Positions 23,170 to 43,636 of a stretch of 55,127 nt of DNA are shown piece by piece. Position 1 is the first letter of the stretch; each line of letters begins with the position of its first letter. The stretch is from Flavobacterium psychrophilum. Lineage in GTDB: Bacteria > Bacteroidota > Bacteroidia > Flavobacteriales > Flavobacteriaceae. Position numbers and translations under genes: made by a program. A model generated the notes under the pieces. It was not told where the DNA came from, did no database searches, and was given only the letters and a program-made list of their open reading frames with translations. The stretch is from assembly GCA_945874225.1 (NCBI GenBank), contig CAMCFT010000025.1, positions 1 to 55,127 on the forward strand. The letters are read 5' to 3'.

Positions 23170-23206
23170 TTGAAGTTTGAAATTAGAAGTTAGGTTTGTT
23201 CTATAG

Positions 23207-23226: not shown

Positions 23227-23241
23227 TTGTTTAGGTATGTT

Positions 23242-23688
23242 TTAAGGTTGATTTTTTTTCCAGACATAAGAATCATCTTCAAAAATTTCTTTTCCCCAGA
23301 TGGGCGTCATCGCTTTTATTTGTTCGACAATATCTTGACAGGCATCAAAGGCTTCTTTGCGGTGTTTAGAAGAAACAAATACAAACAGACATATTTCGCC
23401 TGCTTTTACCACTCCAAGGCTATGATAAATATGCATACACACTAAATTGTATTTGGCAAAAGCCGCTTCTCGTATTTCGTAAAAAAGTTCATCCGCCATA
23501 TCCTGATAGGCTTCATAATTGATAGCAACCACAGTTTTATCCTCAATTATATCGTTTCGAACTTGTCCCAAAAAAATGTCGTGTGCTCCAATATCAGTTT
23601 TTGAGCTGTGTTTGGCAATGCTATTGGCGATAAAATCAGGGGTTATTGGACCATTAATGAACACATTGTGCTTTTTTTTCTCTTTCAT
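23242..23688 (-). CDS. moaE: Molybdopterin synthase catalytic subunit MoaE
   Basis: 148 residues. It contains GQVRNDIIEDKTVVAINYEA and IYHSLGVVKAGEICLFVFVSS, with the catalytic Lys region RKEAFDACQDIVEQIKAMTPIWGKE. It transfers sulfur from thiocarboxylated MoaD to cyclic pyranopterin monophosphate to make the dithiolene. It overlaps the upstream moeB by 4 bp, so it is translationally coupled. Confidence 0.95.
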   Translation of the reverse strand: MKEKKKHNVFINGPITPDFIANSIAKHSSKTDIGAHDIFLGQVRNDIIEDKTVVAINYEAYQDMADELFYEIREAAFAKYNLVCMHIYHSLGVVKAGEICLFVFVSSKHRKEAFDACQDIVEQIKAMTPIWGKEIFEDDSYVWKKNQP

Positions 23689-24809
23689 AGTAAGGTTTTA
23701 TAATTTGTATTTTTCCAATTTTCAATACCTCCAGACAAACTAAATGCTTGACAATTAGGAAATGTTTTTTTTAATAATTGTACACCTTTTGCACTACGTT
23801 GACCCGTTTTGCAAAAGACCACTATTTTATTTTCTTGTGAAATGGTCGAAACTAAATTTTCAAATTCACTCAATGGAATTAATGTAAAATAAAATTCATC
23901 CACATCTGGAAGTTCACCCTTTTCACGAACGTCAATTATGGTGATTTTTTCTTTTATTCTAAGAATATCAAATTCTTCGACGGAAAGCGTTTCAATATTA
24001 AAATTCGCATTACAATTCCATTCATAATTATAGTCTAAAAAAGCTTTTTTGCTTCTTGGAAAATCGACAATTTGATTTGCATTCGAACTAATTTCAAAAT
24101 CATAAAAGGAATTTTCTAAGGCATTGTACGAAATTATTTTATTGGTCAATGCCTTGCCGACACCCGTAATGATTTTCAGTGCTTCGGTGGCTTGCATTGT
24201 TCCAATGATTCCCGGAATCACGCCTAAAACGCCTACATCATTACACGAAGTTGCTGATGCCGAATCGGGTGCTTTTGGAAATAAATCACGGTAATTGGTT
24301 TTACTATTGGTGTCTTTATCCACAAGATTAAAAACGCCAATTTGTCCTTCAAAACGCAAAACAGCACCATAAACCAATGGTTTGTCAAGCAACACGCAGG
24401 CGTCATTTATGAGGTATCGCGTGGCAAAATTATCGGAGCCATCGATGATAATATCGTAGTTTTCCAGAATTTCTAGTGCATTTTTATTGGTAATTTGAAA
24501 ATTATAGGCTTGGATTTTAATTTCTGGGTTGAGTGCTTCTAATCTTTTGGCAGCCGTAATTGCTTTTGATAGGCCTATATCATCAACTGTATAGAGAATT
24601 TGACGTTGTAGATTTGACATTTCGATTACATCAAAATCCACAACGCCAATCGCTCCCACACCGGCAGCTGCAAGGTATTGCAAGGCAGGGCAACCCAAAC
24701 CGCCTGCACCAATTATCAATACTTTTGCTTGAGTAATTTTGTCCTGACCCAGTTGCCCAATTTCTTTGAGTTGTACTTGTCTTTGGTATCTAATATTATG
24801 TAAATTCAT
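23685..24809 (-). CDS. moeB: MoeB/ThiF-type adenylyltransferase with C-terminal rhodanese domain
   Basis: 374 residues. Residues 1-240 are the E1-like adenylating domain (RYQRQVQLKEIGQLGQ, nucleotide loop GAGGLGCPALQYLAAAGVG, DGSDNFATRYLIND). The C-terminal ~100 residues are a rhodanese domain with active-site Cys in VVFCKTGQRSAKG. The enzyme adenylates the MoaD C-terminal Gly-Gly and can itself load sulfur via the rhodanese Cys, as in eukaryotic MOCS3. It lies next to moaD and moaE, which supports a Moco rather than thiamin role. Confidence 0.93.
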   Translation of the reverse strand: MNLHNIRYQRQVQLKEIGQLGQDKITQAKVLIIGAGGLGCPALQYLAAAGVGAIGVVDFDVIEMSNLQRQILYTVDDIGLSKAITAAKRLEALNPEIKIQAYNFQITNKNALEILENYDIIIDGSDNFATRYLINDACVLLDKPLVYGAVLRFEGQIGVFNLVDKDTNSKTNYRDLFPKAPDSASATSCNDVGVLGVIPGIIGTMQATEALKIITGVGKALTNKIISYNALENSFYDFEISSNANQIVDFPRSKKAFLDYNYEWNCNANFNIETLSVEEFDILRIKEKITIIDVREKGELPDVDEFYFTLIPLSEFENLVSTISQENKIVVFCKTGQRSAKGVQLLKKTFPNCQAFSLSGGIENWKNTNYKTLL

Positions 24810-24820
24810 TTTATTAAATT

Positions 24821-25054
24821 TTACCCACCTGAAAATGGCGGAAGTAAAGCTATCGTATCGTTTTCATTGATTGTTGTATTCTCTTGTATCACTTTTTTGT
24901 TTACAGCAATAGAATAGCGAGCTGTGGATAATAGAGGGAATTGTTCTTCCAAATTTTTTATCAACTCATTCGTGTCTTTTATTCCAGCCATTTTCCACGC
25001 TGATTTGCCCATAATGTCGGCAATTTGCCCAAAAAAAAGTAGGTTCATTTCCAT
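24821..25054 (-). CDS. moaD: Molybdopterin synthase sulfur carrier MoaD
   Basis: 77 residues, ubiquitin-like beta-grasp protein. It ends IALLPPFSGG, the Gly-Gly C-terminus that is adenylated by MoeB and thiocarboxylated. It sits 11 bp before moeB and 1 bp after mobA in the operon. Confidence 0.95.
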   Translation of the reverse strand: MEMNLLFFGQIADIMGKSAWKMAGIKDTNELIKNLEEQFPLLSTARYSIAVNKKVIQENTTINENDTIALLPPFSGG

Positions 25055-25055
25055 T

Positions 25056-25643
25056 TTAAATTCGGTTTAATGCGTTGTCAAAATCGGCTTTGGTATTGAT
25101 GTTTTTAAAAAAAGATGCTGCAAAGATTTCGTTGTTTTCAACAGGAATTTTTTTCAACTTGAAGTGTAAAACCATATCTTGTAATTTAACCTTTTCTTGT
25201 TGGATAAGTTGCAACCATTTGTCCTCACAATCTTTAGAATACACTCCAAATAAGGGTTCTAATTTTCCTTGATTTTCCAATAAAACTATTTGCGATTCAT
25301 TTCTGTTTTTAAAAATAAAGTCAACCGCTTCTTTATTCACAAAAGGCATATCGCAACTCACCATGAAATTTAATTTTGTTTCCGAATGCTTCAAAGCGGT
25401 GTAAATTCCGCCAGCGGGTCCAATGTCTTTTATCAAATCCGGAATTACTTCCAATCCAAATTTTTCGTATTCGGGATTATTGGAAACAATAACCAATTTG
25501 TCAAAAATGGGCAGCATTTGCTCAATGACATATTGAATCATTGCTTTACCTTCAAAAAGCAGCAAGCCTTTATCAGTGCCCATTCTGGAACTTTTTCCAC
25601 CTGCCAGAATATATCCGTTTGTGTTTTTTATTTTGGTATCCAT
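25056..25643 (-). CDS. mobA: Molybdenum cofactor guanylyltransferase
   Basis: 195 residues. The N-terminal nucleotidyl-transferase motif GYILAGGKSSRMGTDKGLL and the metal-binding VSCDMPFVN identify MobA, which joins GMP to Mo-molybdopterin to give the MGD cofactor used by DMSO-reductase-family enzymes. The molybdoenzyme at 41.4-43.6 kb is of that family, so this gene is directly relevant to it. Confidence 0.93.
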   Translation of the reverse strand: MDTKIKNTNGYILAGGKSSRMGTDKGLLLFEGKAMIQYVIEQMLPIFDKLVIVSNNPEYEKFGLEVIPDLIKDIGPAGGIYTALKHSETKLNFMVSCDMPFVNKEAVDFIFKNRNESQIVLLENQGKLEPLFGVYSKDCEDKWLQLIQQEKVKLQDMVLHFKLKKIPVENNEIFAASFFKNINTKADFDNALNRI

Positions 25644-25645
25644 AA

Positions 25646-26377
25646 TCAGGTGAAAATTAATTTTATGGAAGCAATAATTAAGACGATAGCCAATAATTTG
25701 TTCAAAAATTCACTTTTAAATTTATTGGCACCAAAATAAGAACCTGCAATTCCACCCATTAATGCAAGGACAATCATCAATCCCATTTCTGTTTTAAATT
25801 CGAAACCTTTGGTAAAAAGACCTGCTAATCCAGCAATTGAATTTACAAAGATGAACAAGGCCGAAACTGTAGCTGTTTTTTTCATATCTGCCCAGTGCAT
25901 CAGTAAAATTATCGGACTCAAAATAATGCCGCCACCTATTCCTATCATTCCTGAAAATAAGCCAATTATTGCTCCTATTAAAAGCGCAAGGGAAACATTT
26001 TGTTTTACATCGAAAGTTGCTGTTTTGAATTTAATTCCCAACAATTTCACTACAGAAAACAGCAAAAGGACCGCCAGAATTTTTTTATACAAAGCGACAT
26101 CTACAGTAATCATTCCTCCAATAAATGCTGCAGGAAAAGAAGCAAGTGCAAAAGGCCAAAATAAATTCCATTTGAAAAAACCACCGCGATAATATTGAAC
26201 AAAAGCAATCAAAGAAACAAAAATATTCAGCAACAAAGCCGTAGGTCGCATTGTTTCCGGGGCAAATGAAAAGAAAGCCATTAGTGCCAAATAGCCGCTT
26301 GCTCCGCCGTGACCCACTGAAGAATAGAGAAAAGCGACCAGCACAAGCAACACATAAAATATAATTTCTAGGTACAT
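25646..26377 (-). CDS. TauE/SafE family membrane transporter
   Basis: 243 residues from the ATG at 26377; the upstream ATG at 26428 would overlap the ModE-like gene and is rejected. About eight helices in two repeats, with VGHGGASGYLALMAF (repeat 1) and GMIGIGGGIILSPIILL (repeat 2), the TauE/SafE signature. Relatives export sulfite, sulfoacetate or other sulfur compounds. It is embedded between a ModE-like regulator and mobA. No modABC transporter is seen in the window, so a role in oxyanion or sulfur-compound transport tied to the molybdoenzyme is plausible but unproven. Confidence 0.88.
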   Translation of the reverse strand: MYLEIIFYVLLVLVAFLYSSVGHGGASGYLALMAFFSFAPETMRPTALLLNIFVSLIAFVQYYRGGFFKWNLFWPFALASFPAAFIGGMITVDVALYKKILAVLLLFSVVKLLGIKFKTATFDVKQNVSLALLIGAIIGLFSGMIGIGGGIILSPIILLMHWADMKKTATVSALFIFVNSIAGLAGLFTKGFEFKTEMGLMIVLALMGGIAGSYFGANKFKSEFLNKLLAIVLIIASIKLIFT

Positions 26378-26381
26378 ACGA

Positions 26382-26714
26382 TTAAATAGTTTTACAGATT
26401 TGCTCTTTAAAATCTTCAAAAGCGGCATTCAATTTGATATAACAAGCAATCAACTCCTCGCCTTCTTTAGTAACTACAGAACCCCCACCACTGGAACCAC
26501 CAGTGTTTTTTATTACAAGAGGAGCTTCCGAAATGGAATTCATTTTTTTGATCATTTCCCAAGCGTGCCGATAGGAAATTTTCATTTCAGTTGCAGCTGC
26601 TTTGATAGAACCCGTTTCTTTGATTTTTTCGAGTAATTCTTTTTTGCCTGAACCCATCAAATGTCCTTTACTGTTTTCTATCGAAAGATGTCCTTTGATT
26701 ATTAAATTTTTCAT
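26382..26714 (-). CDS. ModE-like winged-helix regulator without molybdate-binding domain
   Basis: 110 residues corresponding to the N-terminal LysR-type winged helix of ModE: KKELLEKIKETGSIKAAATEMKISYRHAWEMIKKMN, then TGGSSGGGSVVTKEGEELI. The C-terminal molbindin domains are missing, so any molybdate sensing must be indirect or by another protein. It is 4 bp upstream of the TauE/SafE start and probably begins a second transcript within the Moco cluster. Confidence 0.88.
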   Translation of the reverse strand: MKNLIIKGHLSIENSKGHLMGSGKKELLEKIKETGSIKAAATEMKISYRHAWEMIKKMNSISEAPLVIKNTGGSSGGGSVVTKEGEELIACYIKLNAAFEDFKEQICKTI

Positions 26715-26800
26715 ATCATTATGAATTATATTGACTAGCCCTCTTTAAAAATTTTCAAATCTTGTTGATTTTAAAAAATTAAGAATATTTTTCTTTTGAA

Positions 26801-26859
26801 ACCATTAAGATAATAAGGTTCATTAAGACTTAATTTACTAAATGGTCTTAATGGTTAAA
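26801..26859. repeat. Hairpin between moeA and the ModE-like gene
   Basis: AACCATTAAGA near 26801 pairs with TCTTAATGGTT near 26848-26858. A nested inverted segment, GTTCATTAAGACTTAAT, lies in between. It may be a dispersed palindrome or attenuate read-through from moeA into the downstream genes. Confidence 0.6.
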
Positions 26860-26864
26860 AAAAA

Positions 26865-28040
26865 TCACAAAATCATTCTCACATTTACCAAATCTCCTTT
26901 TTTGAAATTCTCGCCCTCTTCATCAAATTCTATCAGACAATCAGCAACTGCAAATGAATTCAGCTTGTAACTTTCTTGATTATTCAAAACCGTCACCGCT
27001 TTTTCTCCCATTTTCCCTTTAAGAAAATAAGTAAGTCCTGCTTTTTTATTAAAATCTTCTGCCAATGGAAATGCCATTTTCTTAAAATATTCCTTTTGTG
27101 TAAAACTGCTAATTGCCTGAACCACATATTCATAAAAACAACTCATAACCGCTGCAGGATTTCCTGGCAAGGCAAATACCAAGTTTTGATTGTGACGCCC
27201 AAAATAAAAAGGTTTTCCCGGTTTTTGTTTGATTTTGTGGAAGATTTTTTGCACCCCACATTTTTCTAATGAAGCGGGAACCAAATCATAATCACCCACC
27301 GAAACGCCGCCTGTAATAATTAAAATATCTGAACTTAGTTGATTCGAAATCGCTCTTTCAATTTCTTCTTCGACATCGTCGACCACTTCGACTGAAACAG
27401 GATTTATTCCTAATTGCTGTAAGGCTGCAATCAAACCAATTGAGTTGGATTCGAAAATTTTTCCTTCCGTAATCGTTTCATCGGCTTTGGCAAGTTCCTT
27501 TCCAGTTATAATAATACTGACGGTTGGTTTCGAAAAAACATTCACTTTATTGATGCCTATTCCTGCTAAAAAGGAAATAGCAACTGGGGACAATAATTGT
27601 CTTTCTTGCAGTGCTAATTCTCCTTTTTTTGTTTGCGAACCTTGAGGACGAACATTGGCGCCTTTGACCAAAAAAGTATCTAGAATTTGAATCATATTTC
27701 CGTCCCGACTGATTTTTTCTTGCATAACAACCGTGTCGGCACCAGGCGGAGTCGGCGCTCCTGTATAAATTCGTACAGCCTCATTTGTTCCCAATAGTTT
27801 GTTTGAATAATTTCCGGTTTGAATTTCGCCAATTACCGTTAAATTGCTTTTTTTATCCCAGTTTTCATAGGAAAAAGCATAACCATCCATAGCTGATTGA
27901 TCAAATGGGGGCGTGTCCATTACTGCATAAATCGGCTCAGCCAAAGTGCTTCCATTGGCTTCAAGCAAAGGCAACATTTTTACTTTTAAAACACTGCAAT
28001 TTTCTTCGATCAGCTGTTTGGCTTCTGTTACATTTATCAT
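26865..28040 (-). CDS. moeA: Molybdopterin molybdenumtransferase MoeA
   Basis: 391 residues from the ATG at 28040 (MINVTEAKQLIEEN), where the family alignment begins; the ATG at 28088 is rejected. Motifs: PPFDQSAMDGYAF, RIYTGAPTPPGADTVVMQE, GSQTKKGE, and the MogA-like domain ILIITGGVSVGDYD with ALPGNPAAVMSCF. It inserts molybdate into adenylylated molybdopterin. 57 bp downstream of moaA and likely co-transcribed. Confidence 0.95.
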   Translation of the reverse strand: MINVTEAKQLIEENCSVLKVKMLPLLEANGSTLAEPIYAVMDTPPFDQSAMDGYAFSYENWDKKSNLTVIGEIQTGNYSNKLLGTNEAVRIYTGAPTPPGADTVVMQEKISRDGNMIQILDTFLVKGANVRPQGSQTKKGELALQERQLLSPVAISFLAGIGINKVNVFSKPTVSIIITGKELAKADETITEGKIFESNSIGLIAALQQLGINPVSVEVVDDVEEEIERAISNQLSSDILIITGGVSVGDYDLVPASLEKCGVQKIFHKIKQKPGKPFYFGRHNQNLVFALPGNPAAVMSCFYEYVVQAISSFTQKEYFKKMAFPLAEDFNKKAGLTYFLKGKMGEKAVTVLNNQESYKLNSFAVADCLIEFDEEGENFKKGDLVNVRMIL

Positions 28041-28097
28041 ATTATCATTTATTTTCCGATATGCCAAAAAAGGAATAACGGTGTTCAAAAAAAAGGT

Positions 28098-29078
28098 TTA
28101 TCCTCCTATGTTTATCATACTTCTATTGGCAATTTTTGTGGCATCAATTTTTGTATAATCGCCTTCAAATTGTCCGCCCAAAGCTTCGGCTTTACTGGCG
28201 ACACATTGTTTTATTATTGGCACAATATCTTCTGAATTCCGTAATGCAGACAAAATATCGGCTTCGCCTTTTGAAAATAAACAATTTTTCATTTTGCCAT
28301 CAGCGGTCAATCGCATTCGGTTACAATTGCTACAAAACGGAGCGCTCATCGTGCTAATAACAGCAAAAGTGCCTTCGTGACCAAAGGGTTTGAATTTTTT
28401 GGCAGTTTCATTCAAGCCGTCTTTCATTCGGATGAAACTGTATTTTGTTGACGCAACATCTAAAATTTCCTGATAACTAAATACTTTTTGGGTGTTCCAT
28501 TGGTTTTTATCAAAGGGCATAAACTCAATGAATCTTACGTGAATGGGTTGATTTTTCGTCCATTCAATAAAATTGAGTATTTCAGCATCATTTACACCTC
28601 GCATTACGACGGTGTTTATTTTTACGTGAAACCCTTCGTCGATGAGTTGCTGGATATTGTTCCAAACTTTTTCGAAAACGTTGCGCTTGGTAATACTAAA
28701 AAACTGGTCTTTATCGAGCGTGTCAAGACTTAAATTAATCGATTTTATTCCTGCTTTTTTAAAAACCTCGATAAACTCATTTGTTCGCAAACCGTTGGTG
28801 GTTAAAGTAAGTTCAATTGGGTATTTTGAAAGTGCCAATAATATTTTTTCAGCATCTTTTCGAACGAGAGGTTCTCCTCCGGTAAGGCGTATTTTTTGGA
28901 CACCCATTTTTACAAATTCACAGGCGATGGTATCGATTTCGTCCACCGTCATCAAGTTTAAAGAAGGCATAAAAGAGGTGTTTTCGTCTGGAATGCAATA
29001 CTGACATCGAAAATTGCAAACATCGGTAAGCGAAATCCGAAGGTAATCGTGTGCTCTTCCAAAATTATCTTTCAACAT
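28098..29078 (-). CDS. moaA: GTP 3',8-cyclase MoaA
   Basis: 326-residue radical SAM enzyme starting Moco synthesis. N-terminal cluster Cys C21, C25, C28 (CNFRCQYC), SAM-binding LTGGEPLVR, and the C-terminal GTP-binding cluster CSNCNRMRL...C. The C-terminal Gly-Gly (INIGG), needed for activity in this family, is present. First gene of the Moco cluster. A weak TAAATTTG -7 candidate lies on the minus strand at 29159-29152. Confidence 0.96.
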   Translation of the reverse strand: MLKDNFGRAHDYLRISLTDVCNFRCQYCIPDENTSFMPSLNLMTVDEIDTIACEFVKMGVQKIRLTGGEPLVRKDAEKILLALSKYPIELTLTTNGLRTNEFIEVFKKAGIKSINLSLDTLDKDQFFSITKRNVFEKVWNNIQQLIDEGFHVKINTVVMRGVNDAEILNFIEWTKNQPIHVRFIEFMPFDKNQWNTQKVFSYQEILDVASTKYSFIRMKDGLNETAKKFKPFGHEGTFAVISTMSAPFCSNCNRMRLTADGKMKNCLFSKGEADILSALRNSEDIVPIIKQCVASKAEALGGQFEGDYTKIDATKIANRSMINIGG

Positions 29079-29340: not shown

Positions 29341-30210
29341 CTACTTCACACTAAGCTTACCAAGGTAATCCCATTCAGCATAAGCACCTTTGTAATTTTT
29401 TACGTTTTTGAAACCTAAAATATTGGTCATATATGTATAAAGCGTTGCTCCTTTTATTCCTGTTTTACAGTATAATAAATAGGTTTTTTCAGGAGAAAGC
29501 TCTATTCCTGCTAATTTTTTAAATTCATCTGGAGAAATAAAGACATTTGTTCCCGTTTTGACTAAACTTTCGTAAGGAATATTAATTGCTCCTTTTATAT
29601 GCCCATTGCTGTACGTACTTTTTTCATTTCTTATACCATTGAATTCATCTGGCGTACGAGCGTCAATGATTACCACATTAGGATTGCCAATTGCTGATTC
29701 AACATAAGCTGCGTCGGCATTGATTTCGGGAACCAAATTTACAGTAAACGTTTTTGCTTTTACCGTTGGCACTTCCGAAGTCAATTTTATGCGCGCATCC
29801 CTAAAGGCATTCATTTCTTTGTGCAATACTTTTACATCTTTGGCACCTAAATATTTAAAAATCCAATAAACTAAAGTTGCGTATTTCTGAGTTCCTTCGT
29901 CGTAAACCACGATAGAATCGTCATTTGAAACGCCTTTATTGCCTAAGATTTTGGCAACATCTTCTAAAGGCAACATCGAACCATCAATTTTTGGATCTTT
30001 TTCATTTAGAATAATATAAGGAATATTGATTGCGCCTTCGATATGGGATTGAGCATACAATTTATCTTTGCTGGCATCAACAACTACCAAATTGGGTTTT
30101 TCTTTTTTCAAAGCGATAAATTCTTGGGCAGTAATCAGGTCTTGGGCAAAAGCGTTGGTTAGACATAAAATAGTTATCAATAAGAAACTGAATAATTTTG
30201 TTGCATTCAT
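29341..30210 (-). CDS. Exported two-domain rhodanese (thiosulfate sulfurtransferase type)
   Basis: 289 residues with a signal peptide (MNATKLFSFLLITILCLTNAFA-Q), hence periplasmic. The N-terminal rhodanese domain (~25-140) has no Cys at its loop (VVYDEGTQKY). The C-terminal domain (~165-285) has the active Cys248 in YCKTGIKG. This matches the SseA/TST pattern with one active and one inactive domain. It would move sulfane sulfur between donors and thiols. Downstream of the porin but behind its own terminator-separated unit; it is the last gene of the sulfur locus on this side. Confidence 0.88.
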   Translation of the reverse strand: MNATKLFSFLLITILCLTNAFAQDLITAQEFIALKKEKPNLVVVDASKDKLYAQSHIEGAINIPYIILNEKDPKIDGSMLPLEDVAKILGNKGVSNDDSIVVYDEGTQKYATLVYWIFKYLGAKDVKVLHKEMNAFRDARIKLTSEVPTVKAKTFTVNLVPEINADAAYVESAIGNPNVVIIDARTPDEFNGIRNEKSTYSNGHIKGAINIPYESLVKTGTNVFISPDEFKKLAGIELSPEKTYLLYCKTGIKGATLYTYMTNILGFKNVKNYKGAYAEWDYLGKLSVK

Positions 30211-31499: not shown

Positions 31500-32528
31500 T
31501 TAAATTGGAGCAACATAAGTTCCATCGGTTTTATAATACCCAAAGTTGTTATCCCAAGCGCTTAGATCCCCTTGCCAAGTCGATTTTCTGATAGTCACTG
31601 AACCATTTTTCATAGTATCCCATATAATTCCGTTGGCACCATAGCTTAAACTTTTAGCATTGTCAAAACCTACAACATTCAACCAAGCTGAAGAAATAGA
31701 GGAAGTTTGACCGGTGTAACAATAGGTCACTAAGGTTGTGGCTGCGGGATTAAATTTGTTCAATCCATCAATTGTCAATCCGTCTGCAAAATCTATTCTG
31801 TAGGCACTAGTAATATGTCCATAAGTATCCCAATCCGCTTGCGCCCATTTATTATTGATAAAATAATTAGTTGGATTTGCTAAAACATCGGTTTTAGAAA
31901 CTGTCCAAGCTATATTGGCTAAAGCTATGGCAATTCGTGCTTTAAGAATTTCTTCTCCTGTAGTTTTTCCTGTAGTTAAAACAGGAGATTTAAATTGAGA
32001 AACTGCTGCTGGTGCACCTGTTGTAACCCAATTGGCGTGATTTAATTGAGCCGTATTGGAAGTCCATTTTGCTTGGAAAGCAGAATGCCATCCTGCCATT
32101 CCCCATTTTAAAACATGTGAGGTATAACCACTTAATCTCAAAAAAGCGACAGCACGAGCTGCTGTTTGTCCGGTGTAACACACTACCAAAATAGGTTTGG
32201 TTCCAGCAATAGGTGCAGCAGTCAATATGTTGGCCAAAGCCACATTTACCGCTCCTTTTATATGCCCATTATCAAAATCTACCGCAGAACGAATGTCCAT
32301 TACATAATAATCAGGAACGGAATAGTCGGTAACATTTACATTTATTGTATTTGCTGCTTTTACCCAAGTGGCATCAACTACATTGGCAAAATCTTTCCCG
32401 GTGCTTTTCATATACTCTGTAAGAATAGTATATTCATCAACACTTGCTTCTTCATATTCCCTACAACTTGTAGCTACAAATAGAGGTATAATTACCGCTA
32501 TTAATAAAATTGAAATTCTTTTTCTCAT
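31500..32528 (-). CDS. Lipoprotein with two catalytic rhodanese domains
   Basis: 342 residues. Lipobox FVATSC puts the lipid on Cys22. Two rhodanese domains (~60-150 and ~195-320) each keep a catalytic Cys in near-identical loops: VVCYTGQTAARA (C117) and TYCYTGQTSSIS (C270). Unlike classical TST proteins, both domains look active. It would be tethered in the envelope and handle sulfane sulfur from thiosulfate or polysulfide. Transcribed divergently from the Crp/Fnr regulator, probably together with the porin downstream. Confidence 0.88.
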   Translation of the reverse strand: MRKRISILLIAVIIPLFVATSCREYEEASVDEYTILTEYMKSTGKDFANVVDATWVKAANTINVNVTDYSVPDYYVMDIRSAVDFDNGHIKGAVNVALANILTAAPIAGTKPILVVCYTGQTAARAVAFLRLSGYTSHVLKWGMAGWHSAFQAKWTSNTAQLNHANWVTTGAPAAVSQFKSPVLTTGKTTGEEILKARIAIALANIAWTVSKTDVLANPTNYFINNKWAQADWDTYGHITSAYRIDFADGLTIDGLNKFNPAATTLVTYCYTGQTSSISSAWLNVVGFDNAKSLSYGANGIIWDTMKNGSVTIRKSTWQGDLSAWDNNFGYYKTDGTYVAPI

Positions 32529-35275: not shown

Positions 35276-37072
35276 CTAAGGAACAATGCACGAAGTTTTT
35301 TTAGCTTTCAACATTTTTATATAATTCCCATCGGTCAGGCGTTTTAAAAACTGGGTGTCTTTTTCATGACAATGAACACAAGCTCCCACTTGTAACATCT
35401 TCTTTTGCTCTTTTATATCCAATGGATAAAAATAATTATGAGACGAATAGGTTGTTTTTATATTTAGATCTTTAATAAAACCTATCCAAGCATCTTGTGG
35501 CAATCCGTCTTGAGGGGCATTAGCATAATAAGAGGTGAATTCCCAACGAGCTTTTTTTGATTTAACAACATAACGTAGTGTCCCCTTTCCAAAACCTAAT
35601 GCTTGAGAATTAATATGACATGAAGCACAATCTCGGGCAAATTTGGTAGTAGTATGGGCTGCATTTGGCGCATACCATCTTACAAATTTCTTATCATTCC
35701 CTGTTTTATTTCCTTTAAAACTAGATTTATCCAAGGTCATAATCATTCCCGGAATGGCGGGAACAAACTCTTTATTATTTCCTGTTTTTTTCACGCCAAT
35801 TGTAGGTGGTGCAAAACCAAATTCGGCAACGTGTTCTACCCAACGCCCTTCCGTTTTATCAGCATTGATAATTCGCGGATCATAATCGGTATGACAACCT
35901 ATACAAGTCGGAGCCCAAGCCGTATGACACATACTACACGAAACTTTTTGATGTACATCATCTCTTTTACAGGAAGGTTTAATCGAAAGCTCTTTTTTGT
36001 TGATTTTAGAAACTAAAAAAGCATTTCCCTTGGCATCTTTATAGGTATTTACCAATGGAATAGATCCTTTTTTAGTAACCAAAAAACTATTTGCCGAATG
36101 TTTATACCCTCTTAAAGCATAATCAAAAGCTGAAATATAATCCATTTGCAAAGGCTTCGTTTGAATTGGTTTTCCTTCAGTATGACAATCGGCACAACTT
36201 ATTTTTATGGCGTCGGCTTCGTGTTTATAGGTTTTGCCATCGCCCATTATTTCTTGCGAAACATGGCAATCGATGCAAAGCATTCCTGATTTGTGATGCA
36301 CATCGGGAGTTGTTTTTTCAAAAACTCTTCCATCCATTAAAACGCGATGCTTTATGCTGTTTTTCACTTCTTTTGGAGTAAGTAAAGTTTCACTCCAACC
36401 TTCATAATTAGTAGCAATTCTTCCAGATCGACTGTGGCAACCAAAACATTTAGTATTGTCAACATCAAGATTAATTCTTGGATGAATTTGGTCTTTACTA
36501 TTGGGTTTTGTTCCTGCATCATAATTCAAATGGCAAGCCAAACAACCTCCGCCACGGGATAGTTCATCAACAGCTGCATAATTTGATTTTTCATTTCCTA
36601 AATGACAAGTAGCACATTTGTTTTTGAGATGGATATCAGCAGCAGTTTGTCCTAAATGTTTGATATGAAATAGAGAATCGCTGGGTTTTAATTCATCGAA
36701 AAGATATTTATCGACACTAATAATTCCCGAATTAGTTGTCATCAATGATTTTTGAATGCGATGGAGTTCTTTGGAATGACAGTTTGCCGTAGCACAAGTT
36801 TGGGAAGCATTTTGAAGATTTCCCGGAATCAGAACCATTCCTTTATGAGCTTGGTTTTTATCATTAGAATGAATATTTCCCAAATGACAGGAAGCACAAC
36901 CAATAACTTTGGGATCGTGATACCTACTAAAACCCGTCATTTCGCTATGACAGGACAAACAAGATTCTTTGTTATTGACAACACGATAATCATTATTAGT
37001 TTGCTTACAACCCATTAGCTGTAAAGCAATTAAAAACAAAATGCCTATAAAAAATGTTTTATTTGGAATCAA
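35276..37072 (-). CDS. Multihaem c-type cytochrome lipoprotein (12 probable haem sites)
   Basis: 598 residues. A lipoprotein signal with LQLMGC places Cys22 for acylation. Eleven CxxCH motifs (CLSCH, CASCH twice, CATCH, CLACH, CFGCH, CIDCH, CADCH, CSMCH, CIGCH, CVHCH) and one CX4CH (CATANCH) give about 12 haems. Many other histidines may serve as distal ligands. It is an envelope-bound electron relay or reductase, related in design to octahaem tetrathionate reductases and other multihaem proteins, but the family is not certain. 68 bp downstream of the rhodanese-fold gene, in the same operon as the molybdoenzyme. Confidence 0.9.
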   Translation of the reverse strand: MIPNKTFFIGILFLIALQLMGCKQTNNDYRVVNNKESCLSCHSEMTGFSRYHDPKVIGCASCHLGNIHSNDKNQAHKGMVLIPGNLQNASQTCATANCHSKELHRIQKSLMTTNSGIISVDKYLFDELKPSDSLFHIKHLGQTAADIHLKNKCATCHLGNEKSNYAAVDELSRGGGCLACHLNYDAGTKPNSKDQIHPRINLDVDNTKCFGCHSRSGRIATNYEGWSETLLTPKEVKNSIKHRVLMDGRVFEKTTPDVHHKSGMLCIDCHVSQEIMGDGKTYKHEADAIKISCADCHTEGKPIQTKPLQMDYISAFDYALRGYKHSANSFLVTKKGSIPLVNTYKDAKGNAFLVSKINKKELSIKPSCKRDDVHQKVSCSMCHTAWAPTCIGCHTDYDPRIINADKTEGRWVEHVAEFGFAPPTIGVKKTGNNKEFVPAIPGMIMTLDKSSFKGNKTGNDKKFVRWYAPNAAHTTTKFARDCASCHINSQALGFGKGTLRYVVKSKKARWEFTSYYANAPQDGLPQDAWIGFIKDLNIKTTYSSHNYFYPLDIKEQKKMLQVGACVHCHEKDTQFLKRLTDGNYIKMLKAKKTSCIVP

Positions 37073-37140: not shown

Positions 37141-37818
37141 TTAACACCCTTCATCTTTTGCAGCAGCTGACTGTGCAGGTTTTACAATCACTTTGGGTTT
37201 TGCTACAGTTGGCTTAGCAACAGCTGTGTTTACTTTGCTACTAGATTTATTGGCGTCTGAAATGAATTTTGCAAAATCTATCACTGGAGTCTCATCATTA
37301 AATATTGTTGGATTTGCGGCAATTTCAGCCCAATTCGCTGCTTTTAAATCATCGTATCCAACAGCTAAATAGCTAACATTTTCAATTCCCATTTGTTTTA
37401 AAATCATAAAAGGAACATTAGCTTCTGATGCTGAACTACCATACAATATCACTTTTTTATTCCCTTCTTTTAAATCCACAAAAAAGTCCATATTATCATC
37501 ATTCATTAGATTCACTTTGTAAATATTTTTGGCTTTAGGCAAATGTCCTTTAGCAAAATCAAACTGACTACGGACGTCCACTAAAATGATAGATTTATCA
37601 TTATTTAAAATCGCTTTCGCTAGTGCTTGAGGAGACACTTGAAAGCTAGCCACTTTTATTTCGGCTAATTCTTTATCAAGTGGTGTAACAAAAGTATATT
37701 TCTCCGTTTTTAAGAATATAAAACCTAGAACTAAAACAATTAGTGTTGCAATAACTCCAAAAGTAATCCAATTGGTCTTGGTAAATTCTGAAGTATCATT
37801 TATAGGGTTTGTGTCCAT
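37141..37818 (-). CDS. Membrane-anchored rhodanese-fold protein with a single C-terminal cysteine (1)
   Basis: 225 residues: a short cytoplasmic N-terminus, one membrane helix (~18-36), a rhodanese fold (~58-165; LVDVRSQFDFAKGHLPKAKNI), then a Pro/Lys/Ala/Val-rich tail of about 30 residues. The catalytic loop reads LYGSSASEAN, with no cysteine. The only cysteine in the protein is residue 225, the last one (AAAKDEGC). A neighbouring paralogue has the same arrangement. By inference the domain is a non-catalytic scaffold carrying a mobile thiol on the periplasmic side, possibly a sulfur carrier. Confidence 0.88.
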   Translation of the reverse strand: MDTNPINDTSEFTKTNWITFGVIATLIVLVLGFIFLKTEKYTFVTPLDKELAEIKVASFQVSPQALAKAILNNDKSIILVDVRSQFDFAKGHLPKAKNIYKVNLMNDDNMDFFVDLKEGNKKVILYGSSASEANVPFMILKQMGIENVSYLAVGYDDLKAANWAEIAANPTIFNDETPVIDFAKFISDANKSSSKVNTAVAKPTVAKPKVIVKPAQSAAAKDEGC

Positions 37819-37875
37819 TTTGATTCTATTAATTTTGTTTCAATTTATGATTGTACTGTAGAAAAAGTTTTATGC

Positions 37876-38598
37876 TTAACAACCTTCATCACCACCGGCT
37901 GCTTTTTTCGGAACAACAACTTTTGGAGTAGGTTTTGCTGCGGATTTTGCTGCGGATTTTGTTTCTGTAGCAGTCGTGTTTTTTTGCACCGCTGCAGTTC
38001 CACCCGGAATAAATTCATCTGGATTTGGCAATCCTAGATGTGCGCCAACAGCCTTGCGAAAACTATAATTTTCGAAAGCTTCTTTTGAATCTGTTTCCAA
38101 AGGTTTTGGAGGATTTAAATACAATTGATAAAATTGATTTAATCCGCCATTTAGGACTTTTAGGTTTTTAATTCCAGCTCTTCGCAAAACAATCCAAACT
38201 TGGTCAGGAACAATAGTACCATTAGAAAATAATACCACATTGTAGGCTTCTGAATCAAAAACAGCTTGATTTTCTTCGGTTAATATTTTTTCATATGGAA
38301 TATTTATTGCTCCAGGAAGCGTGAATTTTCCATACTGAACAGTATCTCTTAAATCCACCAAAAGATAGGATGGATCTTGACCAATAATAACTTTGGCCAA
38401 CTCATCAGGTTGTATAAATCGATTACTATTAACCGATTCTAATAACAAATTACTGGGTGTAACTCCAGTATATTTAGCTGATTTCAAGCTTTTTTGATTT
38501 CTTTTGGCATCAATAGAATTGCTTTTATCAGGCAAAAAAGCCAATACAATGGATAGTACAATTGGTACTAATGCTAAAAATATATATCGTTTTTTCAT
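37876..38598 (-). CDS. Membrane-anchored rhodanese-fold protein with a single C-terminal cysteine (2)
   Basis: 240 residues: an N-terminal signal anchor (~5-21), a rhodanese fold (~60-165; LLVDLRDTVQYGKFTLPGAINIP), a helical insert with NPDEFIPGG, then an Ala/Lys/Pro tail. The active-site loop is VLFSNGTIVPDQ, without cysteine. The sole cysteine is the final residue 240 (AAGGDEGC). Overall identity with the downstream paralogue is low, but the DEGC terminus is shared. That argues for selection on the terminal thiol. Lies 50 bp after the second YeeE half. Confidence 0.88.
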   Translation of the reverse strand: MKKRYIFLALVPIVLSIVLAFLPDKSNSIDAKRNQKSLKSAKYTGVTPSNLLLESVNSNRFIQPDELAKVIIGQDPSYLLVDLRDTVQYGKFTLPGAINIPYEKILTEENQAVFDSEAYNVVLFSNGTIVPDQVWIVLRRAGIKNLKVLNGGLNQFYQLYLNPPKPLETDSKEAFENYSFRKAVGAHLGLPNPDEFIPGGTAAVQKNTTATETKSAAKSAAKPTPKVVVPKKAAGGDEGC

Positions 38599-38648: not shown

Positions 38649-39236
38649 TTAATATTCTACACTTTTAACACGTTTACGGATTAGCATTGTTGCATAAAAG
38701 GCAATAATGGCAATTATTGAAATACCAACGGTAAACCAATACGGACTAATATTGAAATATTCTGGCACGGTTATATCGCCTAAATTGCTTGAATTATAAA
38801 AATTTTCAAACAAAGGAAACATTTCAGAGAAAATAAATACGCCAAGAATTATCCCTCCAAAAAACACATAACCATCTAATTTTCCAATTCCTATTGCAGT
38901 AACGCAAGTACCCGGACAAAATCCTCCTGTCACAAAACCCATTCCCATAATGACGCCACCTACTACTATTGGCCAGACTCTAGCTGGCAAACCGTCTAAA
39001 GCAGCCATATTAATCCATCCAAAATAATCCATAAAAAGTAATCCTATGGATGCGGTAATTGCTGCGGTAAAAAACACTCTCAACACGGCAAAATCGTATC
39101 CGTAAAAAACGCCTACCAATTTTCGAGAAGAGGAGAATCCCGATGATTCCAGAACAAATCCAAATGCCATTCCCATAAGGATAGCAATGATATTATTCCA
39201 TTGATCTGACAAAATTTCTGGTATTAATGGTCCCAT
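38649..39236 (-). CDS. YeeE/YedE family transporter, half 2 (GFCPGTC)
   Basis: 195 residues with five or six helices. It carries FGFVLESSGFSSSRKLVG and GMGFVTGGFCPGTCVTA (C107, C111), the signature of one repeat of YeeE/YedE (TsuA) thiosulfate-uptake proteins. In the single-chain family the two repeats are fused; here the other repeat is the next gene upstream. Likely substrate is thiosulfate or a sulfane sulfur passed along the conserved cysteines. Confidence 0.88.
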   Translation of the reverse strand: MGPLIPEILSDQWNNIIAILMGMAFGFVLESSGFSSSRKLVGVFYGYDFAVLRVFFTAAITASIGLLFMDYFGWINMAALDGLPARVWPIVVGGVIMGMGFVTGGFCPGTCVTAIGIGKLDGYVFFGGIILGVFIFSEMFPLFENFYNSSNLGDITVPEYFNISPYWFTVGISIIAIIAFYATMLIRKRVKSVEY

Positions 39237-39334: not shown

Positions 39335-39862
39335 TTATATCCATAATTTTCTAAAGAAATAGGCAAAAATATAGGCTCCTCCAAAAATGGAAAGCATCGC
39401 TATATAACCACCCAGTGACAATACGGTCATACCACTCAAAGCTGCTCCGCTAGTACATCCTTTTGCAAATTGTGCTCCAAAACCAAATAAGACTCCGCCT
39501 AATAAAGCAAACCATAAACGTCTTTTAGCAGTGATTTTTGGAGAATGTTGCACTCTAAAAAACACTCTTCCCGATAACGAGCCCGAAATAAAAGCTCCTG
39601 CAACCACTCCTAGTACCTCAAAAACTAACCAATTGCTAATAGGAACTTTGCCCCCTAAAAATTGATCGGCATAATAAGTGTTATTTTCTGCGTGAGTTGG
39701 AGCTACTGAAAGAACGGTTTGAGTTACAATAGCTTTGGCTGCTCCTGAGGCTCCCAATCCTCTTCCTGTAAAAAAGAAGGTCAAAATTAAAATTATACCC
39801 AAAAGAAATCCCCCAAAATAAGGGTTCCAATAAGTGTGTTGTTTATTCTCTTTAATATCCAT
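39335..39862 (-). CDS. YeeE/YedE family transporter, half 1 (AKGCTSG)
   Basis: 175 residues, four or five helices. The second-half motif GGVLFGFGAQFAKGCTSGAALSG (given here in parts: FGFGAQFAKGCTSG, C136) is the other conserved YeeE repeat. Together with the downstream gene it should form a complete sulfur-compound channel. A central loop with HAENNTYYADQFLGG faces one side of the membrane. 17 bp after the NrfD gene, so tightly linked to the oxidoreductase. Confidence 0.88.
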   Translation of the reverse strand: MDIKENKQHTYWNPYFGGFLLGIILILTFFFTGRGLGASGAAKAIVTQTVLSVAPTHAENNTYYADQFLGGKVPISNWLVFEVLGVVAGAFISGSLSGRVFFRVQHSPKITAKRRLWFALLGGVLFGFGAQFAKGCTSGAALSGMTVLSLGGYIAMLSIFGGAYIFAYFFRKLWI

Positions 39863-39879: not shown

Positions 39880-40824
39880 TTAATAAAGAATACGTGTTAT
39901 TTGCCCTGCTTCGACCATCAAAACCCTGAAAATCAAACCGCTTACAATAATTAAAATTGCAGGAACAACCACAGGAACTTTATAGCCCATCAATTCGAAA
40001 ACTTCCAAAACTAAAGGCAATAGTAAACCTAAAGCAACGAAGAAACCAAAAAACAAGGTGGTCAAATCGCCTCCTACTAATATTTTAACGGCTTCAATTT
40101 GCATTTCGTTTCCAGCATAATAGCCCATAATCAAGTGGATGATTAAACCTACTTCAATAACAATTAATAAAATGTCGATTTTGCTGAATAAATGTCTTTC
40201 GTGTGATGATTTGGCAAACAAAATAATAGTTGCTGCTGCTGTCGAAAGTCCAGAAACTAAGAATAATGGCCCTAAAATAGCGTTGTTCCAAAGTGGTCGT
40301 GCATTAAATGCTGAAAGTAAAATACCGGTGTAAATTCCCAAAATAATAGTCAATGGTATCAAAGCAATAGCCATATATTTTTTATATTTCACACATAAAT
40401 CCTCTAATTTGAATAGAATTGGAAGTTTGGTGTAATTCAATTTTGGAAACAACTTTCTCAAATCTGAAAAAATCCAAAGAATTGAAAGTGGTGTTACTAT
40501 TAATAAAACCCATGCACCCCAAGACATTGGTGATTCTAAACGAATAGTAGTGTACAGTTTCCAAGAATAAAAAGGATTTCCCAAATCTATAATTAAGGCA
40601 AACAATCCAATTGCCAAAGCAAAAGGGACAATTAGTGGCGCCCATTTTGATGCTCCTTTCAGTTCTTCGTCTTTATTCAAAAGATGGGTAATGGCAGAGA
40701 ACAATAGTATTCCTGCGGATAATCCTCCTAGAAATAAATAAAAGGATATTGGGAACTCCCACAGAGATAAATGTGGATCTATGTGAGGAATGTTTCTTCC
40801 ACTGATGAAAATTTCTTCTTTCAT
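39880..40824 (-). CDS. NrfD/PsrC-type membrane quinone-interacting subunit
   Basis: 314 residues with eight or nine helices. It begins HIDPHLSLWEFPISFYLFLGGLSAG, the conserved first helix of NrfD/PsrC proteins, and ends with GLIFRVLMVEAGQITRILY. In PsrABC-like complexes this subunit exchanges electrons with the quinone pool and anchors the soluble subunits. Gene order Mo subunit, FeS, NrfD is the canonical order of the family. Confidence 0.9.
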   Translation of the reverse strand: MKEEIFISGRNIPHIDPHLSLWEFPISFYLFLGGLSAGILLFSAITHLLNKDEELKGASKWAPLIVPFALAIGLFALIIDLGNPFYSWKLYTTIRLESPMSWGAWVLLIVTPLSILWIFSDLRKLFPKLNYTKLPILFKLEDLCVKYKKYMAIALIPLTIILGIYTGILLSAFNARPLWNNAILGPLFLVSGLSTAAATIILFAKSSHERHLFSKIDILLIVIEVGLIIHLIMGYYAGNEMQIEAVKILVGGDLTTLFFGFFVALGLLLPLVLEVFELMGYKVPVVVPAILIIVSGLIFRVLMVEAGQITRILY

Positions 40825-40860: not shown

Positions 40861-41397
40861 TTAAATTAAATAATAAACATTGGGTGATGTTCCAGCTTCT
40901 TTTGCCAAGACTTTGTGTTTTCTAACAGCTAATAATTGGGCTACTTTGCTATTAGAATCATCTAAATCACCAAAATACATACAGTTTGTAGGACAAACCG
41001 AAACACAGGCAGGATCTTGTCCTTTTTTTACTCTGTGTATACAAAATGTGCATTTATCAACTATTCCCAAATCGGGATGTCTATATCTGGCATCGTAAGG
41101 GCAGGATTCTATACAAGCACCACATCCGATACATAAATCTCTGTCTACCAAAACAATTCCTCCTTCTACAATATGACTTGCTTCAGTAGGGCAAGTTCTT
41201 ACACAAGGGGCGTTGTCACAATGATTACATCGTTCTGACCTTAATTCTATATCTACTTCTGGATAAGTCCCATTAACAGATTCGGTTACCCAATCCCTAC
41301 AATATCCTGATGGGACATCGTTTTCTGTTTGACAAGCCACTACACAGTCGCTACATCCTACGCATTTGAGCGTATCTATGACCATTACATATCTCAT
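40861..41397 (-). CDS. 4Fe-4S ferredoxin-type electron transfer subunit (DmsB/PsrB-like)
   Basis: 178 residues with four cysteine sets for [4Fe-4S] clusters: CVGCSDCVVAC, CNHCDNAPCVRTC, CIGCGACIESC and CTFC...CVSVC. It wires the molybdenum subunit to the NrfD membrane subunit. Own signal peptide absent, so it would be exported with the Tat-bearing catalytic subunit. 1 bp separates it from that gene. Confidence 0.93.
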   Translation of the reverse strand: MRYVMVIDTLKCVGCSDCVVACQTENDVPSGYCRDWVTESVNGTYPEVDIELRSERCNHCDNAPCVRTCPTEASHIVEGGIVLVDRDLCIGCGACIESCPYDARYRHPDLGIVDKCTFCIHRVKKGQDPACVSVCPTNCMYFGDLDDSNSKVAQLLAVRKHKVLAKEAGTSPNVYYLI

Positions 41398-41398
41398 C

Positions 41399-43636
41399 TT
41401 AAACTCTTTTTTTAGGATCCTCCGTTAAAATTGTTACAAAATTTCCTCTCATTCCGGTACCTCCCATCAAAGGATCGACCATCAATTTGGTAATCATTTC
41501 GGTATCATTGATGCCTTTTCCGTAAGAACGCTTCATATCTGGATTTTTTTGTCCAAATCCGTGCACCATATATACTGAATCCCAACGAATACGTTCCGTA
41601 AGGCGAACTTTGATAGGAAATGAAGAAACCACTTCGTCTTGATTTTTTAACCACACGGGTTGACCTGATTTTAAGTTCCAAATCTTTCCGACTTTTGGAT
41701 TGACCCAAAGGCTATTTTCACTTCTCAAATCATTCAAATTCGGGCTATTCACCGTTTTGCTAAAGGTGTGCATTGGCGCTCTACCATAATTTAGACGGAA
41801 ATAATCTTTAGGGGGTTGTTCGTGAGCCGTATAAACTGGCATAGGATCCAGGCCTAAATCTTTTAGTTTTTGAGAATACAATTCGATTTTTCCAGAATCA
41901 GTTTTAAAAATATGTTCAGCTCCTTCTTCAATATACAATGGACCACCGGTTCTTGGAAGATTTTTTACTCCAATTTTTTTCATCTCTTCTAAGGAAGTTC
42001 CGACTTGTTTGAATTGCCAATCCAAAATATCCGTATAATCATTAAATTTATAATATTCGCCTAAACCTAATTTCAAACCTATTTGTTTACCAATCCACCA
42101 ACCTGGTTTAGATTCCCAACGAGGAGCAGCGGCTGGCATTCTCAAAGCAATAGACGGCGTTCTAAAGTCTGAATTTCGAAGATCATCATATCTTTCTAAA
42201 TAAGAACATTCGGGCAAAACTACATCGGCATAACCGGCAATTTCTACAGGATAGATATCAATAACTACTAAAAACTCTAAGGCTTTTATGGCTTTCATCA
42301 TCATGTCCTTTTCAGTTGGAACAGATTGAGTAAGATTAGTGCCAGCGACCATCCAAGCTTTTACTTGATGTGTTGTGTCTTCGCCTGGAATAGAAGCACG
42401 AATTACTTCATTAGTAACCCCTTGATTTGCAAAAGGCATATTGACATTCAAATCTTTGGCAACCCAAGCTGGTTCAGGATATTCTGGATGCGGGAATTTT
42501 GGAATTTTTGCTTTTTCATTAAAGTAAAAACCTCCTCTACGTCCCCAAGTGCCTAAGAGCGCATTTAGAATGCCTATGGCACGGGTGCGTTGCGTGTCAT
42601 CGCCATACCAAACCGAATGTCTTCCGGGATGGATCATAGTTGCTGGTGCCGCTTTTCCCATTTCTCGAGCTGAATCCCGAATCATTTTTGGTGTCAAATC
42701 GGTAATGCTATACGCCCACTCTGGTGTAAATTGACGCACATGTTCTTTGAGTTCATCAAATCCAGTGGTGTATTTGGCAACATATTCTTTATCATACAAG
42801 TCTTCAAAAATGATGACATTCATCCATGCTAATAGCAAAGCCATATCGGTAGCAGGACGAATAGGTAACCAATATTTTGATTTACTGGCTACGGTAGATA
42901 AACGAGGATCAACCGTAATAATAGTTACACCTTTATCTATAGCTTCTGAAACTTCTTGCACTTGAGTATTGTGCATATTTTCTCCAATATGGGAACCTAT
43001 AAAGACTAAACATTTAGAATCACGCATATCAGTAGCTTCAGGCGAACCACAACTTTCTCCAAAAGTGAGTTTCAATCCTTCGTCACGAGGGCCACGGCAT
43101 TGAGCAAAGGCTGGCTCAGCGACTGTATCAGAACCATAAGAGCTAAAAAGATGTTCTAAATGACTGCCTATGGCTCCGTGTTTTAGAAGCGCAAAACTTT
43201 CTGCACCATATTTGGATTTTATATCTTTCATTTTGCTTGCCACCAAAGAAATTGCTTCTTCCCAAGATGCTTCGCGAAATACTGATTTTTCTCCTTTTTT
43301 AGAAACTCTGATTAGTGGCGTTTTTAGTCGGTCGTCATCGAAATGCATTCCCAAACCACCAGTTCCTCGGGTACATAATCTCCCTTTACTGTGCGTATCA
43401 ATATCGTTGCCAATAATTTTTTTGATTGTTCCTTTTTCATCTACATAAGTCCAGCCGGCACATTTCCAAAAGCATACATCACAATAGGTAGGAAATCGTT
43501 TTAAATCAGGGCGGTCATAATTGAAATCTTCTTTATTCCCACCAAAAACGTCAACTGAATAAAGCGAACCTGCAACAGCTGCTGCTCCTGCTCCCCACAT
43601 TGAAATTTTTATAAAATCCCTTCTTGATGAATTCAT
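41399..43636 (-). CDS. Tat-exported molybdopterin oxidoreductase, PsrA/PhsA-like catalytic subunit
   Basis: 745 residues. The Tat signal is SRRDFIKISMWGAG. The [4Fe-4S] site is C52, C55, C59 and C88 (CDVCFWKC ... GRLC). The probable Mo ligand is C180 in AQCRGPRDEGLKLTFG, aligned with the polysulfide/thiosulfate reductase group, which uses cysteine. Other bis-MGD contacts: GSHIGENMH, TVDPRLSTVASK, RHSVWYG and VHGFGQKNPDMKRSYGKG. Most likely substrates are polysulfide, thiosulfate or tetrathionate; sulfite or arsenate cannot be ruled out. First gene of an operon through the cytochrome. Confidence 0.9.
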   Translation of the reverse strand: MNSSRRDFIKISMWGAGAAAVAGSLYSVDVFGGNKEDFNYDRPDLKRFPTYCDVCFWKCAGWTYVDEKGTIKKIIGNDIDTHSKGRLCTRGTGGLGMHFDDDRLKTPLIRVSKKGEKSVFREASWEEAISLVASKMKDIKSKYGAESFALLKHGAIGSHLEHLFSSYGSDTVAEPAFAQCRGPRDEGLKLTFGESCGSPEATDMRDSKCLVFIGSHIGENMHNTQVQEVSEAIDKGVTIITVDPRLSTVASKSKYWLPIRPATDMALLLAWMNVIIFEDLYDKEYVAKYTTGFDELKEHVRQFTPEWAYSITDLTPKMIRDSAREMGKAAPATMIHPGRHSVWYGDDTQRTRAIGILNALLGTWGRRGGFYFNEKAKIPKFPHPEYPEPAWVAKDLNVNMPFANQGVTNEVIRASIPGEDTTHQVKAWMVAGTNLTQSVPTEKDMMMKAIKALEFLVVIDIYPVEIAGYADVVLPECSYLERYDDLRNSDFRTPSIALRMPAAAPRWESKPGWWIGKQIGLKLGLGEYYKFNDYTDILDWQFKQVGTSLEEMKKIGVKNLPRTGGPLYIEEGAEHIFKTDSGKIELYSQKLKDLGLDPMPVYTAHEQPPKDYFRLNYGRAPMHTFSKTVNSPNLNDLRSENSLWVNPKVGKIWNLKSGQPVWLKNQDEVVSSFPIKVRLTERIRWDSVYMVHGFGQKNPDMKRSYGKGINDTEMITKLMVDPLMGGTGMRGNFVTILTEDPKKRV

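Follow-up and report, generated by a model that had tools for sequence, protein, structure and literature searches.

Two adjacent genes in the window, the whole 55,127-nucleotide stretch of Flavobacterium psychrophilum DNA that was analysed (contig CAMCFT010000025.1), encode rhodanese-fold proteins, RhdA and RhdB, whose catalytic loops contain no cysteine and whose only cysteine is the final residue. Judging from sequence comparisons and structural models, RhdA and RhdB are probably periplasmic sulfur carriers, wherein the thiol at the end of a C-terminal tail would exchange sulfane sulfur between exported enzymes and a YeeE channel. The initial annotation had described two neighboring rhodanese-fold open reading frames (ORFs) with a single C-terminal Cys each and loops devoid of Cys, and the ORFs, Pfam matches, cysteine counts, and alignment agree with that description.

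The rhodanese family PF00581 is the sole Pfam match of either protein (54.8 bits for RhdA and 41.4 bits for RhdB, with a cut-off of 22.2), and both proteins begin with an N-terminal hydrophobic segment. In the alignment, the position of the catalytic Cys is occupied by Gly in RhdA and by Ser in RhdB, and the loop Cys of a catalytic rhodanese is therefore absent from both. An AlphaFold2 model of RhdB gives ten-residue means of the predicted local distance difference test (pLDDT) of 91 to 96 over residues 61 to 190, and values below 50 over residues 197 to 240. The best structural matches of this model in the PDB are rhodanese domains, and PDB entry 1qxn, named a sulfide dehydrogenase, is a weak match to the RhdB profile (E = 0.00065). 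Both tails are predicted to be mobile, with disorder predicted for that of RhdB.

The proposal that the pair works by a swinging arm fares well where sequences can speak to it. The tail Cys is conserved, the loop Cys is nearly always lost, the gene neighborhood is conserved, and the tail is predicted to be disordered. Among database homologues, Cys is the last or penultimate residue in 77 of 78 relatives of RhdA, whose tails otherwise vary in sequence, and in 68 of 75 relatives of RhdB. The misses within these two counts are P0047, P0112, P0118, P0120, P0122, P0145, P0148, and P0150. One of them, P0122 (157 residues, loop FCRSG, on a 606-base contig), is chimera-like, and the ends of P0047, P0112, P0118, and P0120 are apparently altered or cut.

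A profile of RhdB, prepared from alignment A1 (33 rows, three tail-less ones included), was searched over 395 Bacteroidota genomes at E ≤ 1e-15, with at most seven candidates scored per genome. This search yielded 62 places in 58 genomes, all of which were read, in 61 stretches, and found to hold 64 carrier ORFs, including two RhdA picked up besides. Every one of the 64 has Cys as its last (58) or penultimate (6) residue. Although most of the sequences behind the profile have a tail, many genome matches align only to the end of the domain, so the tail itself is unnecessary for a match. The carrier endings include EGGC, REGC, VGGC, RMGC, GGCG, GGCS, and FQC, with EGC or GGC being usual. Thus, the DEGC terminus that the initial annotation regarded as shared is indeed common to RhdA and RhdB of the window, but as a general form it gives way to a broader EGC/GGC/GC ending, of which DEGC is one local version. 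A match was present in 25 of 299 genomes of a family-level sample. At 24 loci with two carriers (L015, L016, and L044–L065), a Cys ending was found in 24/24 RhdB and 22/24 RhdA proteins. A local accident was rejected as the origin of the terminal Cys because the residue is found phylum-wide.

None of 30 ordinary rhodaneses, chosen as the best-scoring PF00581 matches in a 41-genome sample, ends in Cys, a control that is narrow because most of these proteins are short and single-domain and each of the 30 has a CxxG loop. In twenty neighborhoods of 15 to 20 kb, 33 of 355 ORFs have Cys in their last two residues, and 32 of these are carriers, tails of the exported rhodanese protein Rhd2x, or fusions to YeeE1, the N-terminal half of a split YeeE channel; the corresponding count for other ORFs is 1/323. 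When 79 carriers were aligned, those of the window included, Cys occupied the catalytic position in only two (L031 and L034), which are also the only two such proteins among the 64 phylum-wide ORFs; a third, L099, has a Cys one residue earlier. Many flavobacterial RhdB proteins do contain a further Cys, located in the helix that follows the loop. Where carriers have database names, these are mostly of the "rhodanese-related" or "YeeE/YedE family" kind.

By gene order, the partner that accompanies the carriers most constantly is the YeeE channel, whereas the PsrA-like enzyme is one alternative among several. The initial annotation had named both. In 60 of the 61 stretches, the carrier either shares one ORF with YeeE1 (31) or directly follows YeeE1 on the same strand (29), the single stretch with neither arrangement being L016. 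The window has a split YeeE of the PmpA/PmpB kind, in that the ORFs at 38649–39236 and 39335–39862 are the two PF04143 halves and each has a channel Cys. When aligned to PDB entry 8j4c, the GCTSG Cys of YeeE2 falls around C293 of StYeeE, the first channel Cys. The GGFCPGT Cys of YeeE1 was taken by its motif as the second (the C91 equivalent), and the third, C22, appears by eye to be replaced by Ser along the FG-x-VL motif when compared with the StYeeE letters. A PDB sequence search found StYeeE with YeeE2 as the query and no match with YeeE1.

With the YeeE1-carrier fusion of L077 as the query, the best 120 of 3181 homologues above threshold were examined; the last residue is Cys in 120/120, preceded by two Gly residues (GGC) in 115. 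Among the columns of these 120 sequences that contain at least three Cys, complete or almost complete conservation is confined to the terminus and to channel positions 107 (120/120) and 113 (119/120). Some of the fusion homologues among the matches listed bear NCBI names of Ignavibacteria. A sixth hydrophobic helix is predicted, with low confidence for the channel, between the five channel helices and the rhodanese domain. In a model of the fusion P0154, the rhodanese part is fairly confident, and the model was not used for orientation because its channel half (residues 1 to 141) is below a pLDDT of 50.

Linkage to enzymes, counted on the same strand and within 8 kb, is also extensive. Among the 62 places, 26 are beside a PsrA relative and 30 are beside a cytochrome of the octahaem tetrathionate-reductase family, for a total of 56. 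At the level of genomes, the Fisher odds ratio is 133 (p = 2.7e-39, uncorrected for relatedness). The octahaem partner at L076 exceeds the TIGR04315 cut-off for octahaem tetrathionate reductase (590 versus 375 bits). Viewed from the enzymes, a carrier match is nearby in 25 of 43 genomes with PsrA and at 30 of 59 octahaem places, the latter count omitting one partial match with internal stops in G021 (59 of 60 places). The remaining six places are G261 C36, G017 (at a contig end, with its PsrA on a different contig), and L100–L103. These last four loci have the order SseA-YeeE2-YeeE1-carrier, with a carrier ending in RMGC and with neither PsrA nor an octahaem cytochrome.

Such loci are what would be expected if the carriers served sulfur import alone, with SseA or Rhd2x supplying sulfur to the tail Cys as a "zeroth cysteine" of the YeeE relay, and with PsrABC and the octahaem enzymes merely sharing substrates with it. 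The link to YeeE1, by adjacency or fusion, is also tighter than that to any single enzyme. However, a reductase-type complex stands beside most of the places, and at L071 and L087 the genes for RhdB and RhdA come straight after NrfD with no YeeE between them (of these two genomes, G302 lacks any PF04143 match and G609 has four elsewhere). We consider import alone to be a rather unlikely account, and favor carriers that would serve exported enzymes as well as the channel.

Sulfur exchange with exported enzymes would place the carriers outside the cytoplasm, as had been suggested, and the extracytoplasmic (periplasmic) side is likely from sequence features. For RhdB, the charge values are 2.87 Lys/Arg and 0.15 Asp/Glu before the hydrophobic segment and 2.72 and 2.24 after it, which favors an orientation with the N terminus inside. 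The equivalent values for RhdA are 1.75 and 1.36 before the segment and 2.62 and 1.35 after it, a pattern that does not decide the matter. The side assigned to RhdA of the window is based on its orthologues rather than on its own charges: RhdA of L063 and L065 has a lipobox in place of the plain anchor, and a lipobox is also present on the tail-bearing Rhd2x of L063, L065, and L067. The twin-arginine motif of the PsrA-like enzyme is consistent with this side as well.

In the mechanism that we favor, the rhodanese domain, having no loop thiol, would be a membrane-anchored docking body, and the working thiol would be the C-terminal Cys on a flexible tail of 25 to 45 residues. Sulfane sulfur would be exchanged between the tail Cys, in persulfide or thiosulfonate form, and an exported enzyme, which depending on the organism may be PsrABC, an octahaem cytochrome, or an SseA-like or Rhd2x sulfurtransferase. 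A swing of the tail would then bring it to the periplasmic opening of the split channel, where sulfur would be passed in or taken out. In the window, the loop-Cys sulfurtransferases with export-like starts (Rhd2x and SseA) could load the tail. We infer the persulfide chemistry, the direction of flow, and the docking partners from these arrangements, and the flow may represent import, respiratory reduction, or oxidation. A bolder version of this proposal holds that these proteins are a new class of carrier, in which the rhodanese thiol has moved to the tip of a C-terminal arm and is tethered to the split YeeE as its periplasmic "zeroth cysteine," with PsrABC-like and octahaem enzymes acting on protein-bound sulfane sulfur that is shared with import, and with the arms of paralogues alike through a common docking partner. 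We consider this full version to be about as likely as not.

The likeness of paralogous arms was assessed by using the last 22 residues of RhdA and RhdB from 29 genomes; 31 pairs were examined, and those of L046 and L060 were dropped on account of an RhdA without a terminal Cys. Tail identity is 0.66 within a genome versus 0.37 between genomes, and none of 20,000 permutations gave a value as high (n = 29), in a test uncorrected for phylogeny in which some genomes are close relatives. The identity of the window pair is modest (0.45). Codons are alike at 0.61 of 328 sites with matching residues (28 pairs), versus 0.53 expected from the codon usage of the genes themselves. Because codons are nearly as different as usage predicts, recent DNA copying is not favored as the sole cause of the likeness, and older conversion may have contributed. 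A likeness that exists mostly at the protein level would be the expected outcome of both tails engaging one partner.

Neighboring proteins with similar tails could also be joined by them, and the terminal Cys might accordingly have a structural or regulatory role, as an inter-protein disulfide (between RhdA and RhdB or with the channel) or as a redox sensor. This explanation seems improbable to us, since many genomes have a single carrier only or one fused to YeeE1, and since a structural disulfide would not usually involve a tail of variable length and sequence for which disorder is predicted. At L086 (7193–9949) and L088, the genes for RhdB, RhdA, and Rhd2x are adjacent and the three proteins have one common GGCG tail. 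The presence of one tail on three different proteins is what a sorting or covalent-attachment signal would produce, with the C-terminal Cys as an anchor or lipid site. Such a signal is very improbable, however, because an N-terminal segment, a lipobox, or a fused channel is already present, no hydrophobic segment follows, and a Cys in the final two residues is so rare among other nearby ORFs.

Several observations weigh against the sulfur-carrier interpretation. A carrier match is absent near PsrA in 18 of 43 genomes, and 14 of these 18 PsrA proteins belong to a clade of 43 to 44% identity. Eight of the 18 loci were inspected (L090–L097). Those from the clade (L090–L094, L090 being near a contig end) have PsrA-NrfD without YeeE or a carrier. 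At L095, PsrA is present but NrfD, YeeE, and a carrier were not labelled; L096 includes YeeE together with a carrier whose tail is out of frame; and L097, truncated by the end of its contig, gave no labelled ORF. Similarly, a carrier match is missing from the surroundings of 29 of the 59 octahaem places, and G302 has carriers with PsrABC and zero PF04143 matches. The indecisive charge pattern extends from RhdA to the fusion helix. L031 and L034 have a loop Cys together with the tail Cys, and may represent a halfway state in the relocation of the thiol. The tail of RhdA at L060 is in a different frame from its domain and was counted as an RhdA miss, and G513 (L046) has a tail-less RhdA, with the tail kept on RhdB and an Rhd2x ending in EGGC (L067:11-1066). 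The tail comparison is weakened by the relatedness of its genomes, and by a domain-body control that has a weak excess of its own (834/20,000). Finally, both kinds of homologue that the initial annotation had named as contradicting a tail-borne thiol do exist, although they are rare: one comprises P0145, P0148, and P0150, true-looking relatives with a loop Ser, no tail, and no Cys at all, and the other the two proteins with a loop Cys, which still keep that of the tail. The three tail-less relatives, and nothing else, speak for the notion that the terminal Cys is a functionless inherited accident, which is hardly credible when the residue is kept in all carrier ORFs across the phylum while the remaining tail varies.

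The out-of-frame tails of L060 (RhdA) and L096 (RhdB) may each reflect an assembly error or a broken gene.

RhdA and RhdB look like members of the swinging-arm sulfur carriers, with a design that is apparently undescribed. Sud of Wolinella and SbdP of Aquifex are rhodaneses that feed sulfur to Psr-type reductases via a loop Cys. The present pair resembles them in placing a rhodanese fold beside a Psr-type reductase, and in the weak match to 1qxn, but has no loop Cys and bears its thiol on the tail. DsrC and TusE have the DsrC fold and two arm cysteines; the Pfam scan of RhdA and RhdB found no DsrC/TusE match, and with one Cys each they also lack the second arm cysteine. Alr3790 (PDB 3hix and 3ilm) likewise has a rhodanese domain with no Cys in the aligned loop stretch, a comparison confined to domain chains of 106 to 141 residues. 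No description of a rhodanese with a terminal-Cys arm was found in the literature searched, which is weak evidence for novelty because most subscription papers were outside its coverage.

SoxY is a periplasmic carrier with a Gly-flanked Cys (GGCGG) near its C terminus on a swinging arm (PMC6067878). The carriers have a comparable Gly-flanked Cys near the C terminus, in the form of EGC or GGC and sometimes GGCG (as at L086 and L088), GGCA, GGCS, or GGCT, on an arm predicted to be disordered. They differ from SoxY in being membrane-anchored or channel-fused, in their long Lys/Ala/Pro tail, and in having PsrABC, an octahaem cytochrome, or SseA as neighbors, and the Pfam scan found PF00581 alone in RhdA and RhdB, with no SoxY domain. 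A YeeE study describes YeeD as a cytoplasmic, TusA-like protein with a CPxP motif, whose Cys extends the YeeE relay as a "fourth cysteine" (PMC11073785). The YeeD/TsuB arrangement is similar in that the Cys of a partner protein lengthens the YeeE/TsuA cysteine relay. RhdB differs in its rhodanese fold and in its favored location, which is across the membrane from YeeD, where the relay is entered; in addition, RhdA and RhdB have no TusA/YeeD match by Pfam and no internal Cys for a CPxP motif. PmpA and PmpB are two half-size YeeE proteins with one conserved channel Cys each (PMC11582611). The halves encoded in the window exceed them in length (195 residues for YeeE1 and 175 for YeeE2, versus ~130) and are tied to tail-Cys carriers.

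The same 2024 study of YeeE-like proteins calls sulfur import into the cytoplasm poorly understood and treats the arrival of sulfur at the outer side of the channels by modelling only (PMC11582611). A one-thiol carrier that is tethered to or fused with the channel offers a small, testable protein for this question. If the proposal is true, the substrates of Psr-type and octahaem enzymes in a large phylum may include a protein-bound one, in addition to free polysulfide, thiosulfate, or tetrathionate. The sequence signature, a rhodanese without a loop Cys that ends in a terminal GC, can be applied to vaguely named database proteins.

Coordinates and supporting evidence for the carrier genes and their neighbors in the window
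Feature	Coordinates	Strand	Basis
RhdA, membrane-anchored rhodanese fold, 225 residues, only Cys is residue 225	37141..37818	-	ORF, Pfam, Cys count
Low-complexity tail of RhdA with DEGC terminus (last Cys codon 37144-37146)	37144..37257	-	
RhdA loop LYGSSASEAN, at place of rhodanese catalytic Cys	37417..37446	-	
RhdB, membrane-anchored rhodanese fold, 240 residues, only Cys is residue 240	37876..38598	-	
Predicted disordered tail of RhdB (residues 197-240) with GGDEGC terminus (last Cys codon 37879-37881)	37879..38010	-	pLDDT <50
RhdB loop LFSNGTIVP, Ser at catalytic-Cys position	38206..38232	-	
YeeE1, N-terminal half of split YeeE/TsuA channel, GGFCPGT cysteine	38649..39236	-	PF04143 positions 10-152
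YeeE2, C-terminal half of split channel, GCTSG cysteine	39335..39862	-	PF04143 positions 173-310; alignment to 8j4c
NrfD/PsrC-type membrane subunit	39880..40824	-	PF03916
PsrB-type 4Fe-4S subunit	40861..41397	-	family match
PsrA/PhsA-like molybdenum enzyme, N-terminal twin-arginine motif SRRDFIK	41399..43636	-	PF00384; NF012032 PhsA 451 bits
Multihaem cytochrome, 11 CXXCH and one CX4CH, distantly ExtM-like	35276..37072	-	
Rhd2x, rhodanese protein of exported lipoprotein type, with two loops read as containing Cys	31500..32528	-	lipobox in orthologues L002, L004
SseA-like sulfurtransferase, loop Cys (LLYCKTGIKG), signal-peptide-like start	29341..30210	-	

The PsrA/PhsA-like enzyme scores below the NF012032 cut-off for PhsA thiosulfate reductase (694 bits) and is a relative of that family. 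The operon is also present in Flavobacterium alvei HR-AY (L002). The multihaem cytochrome matches ExtM, of selenite/tellurite operons, at 206.8 bits (cut-off 800), and the SseA-like protein is weakly ExtH-like. Adjoining the PsrA operon on the same strand, positions 22261 to 29078 hold an apparent run of molybdenum-cofactor genes, named by reading the ORFs as MoaC/Mog-like, MoaE-like, MoeB with a rhodanese, MobA-like, MoeA-like, and MoaA-like.
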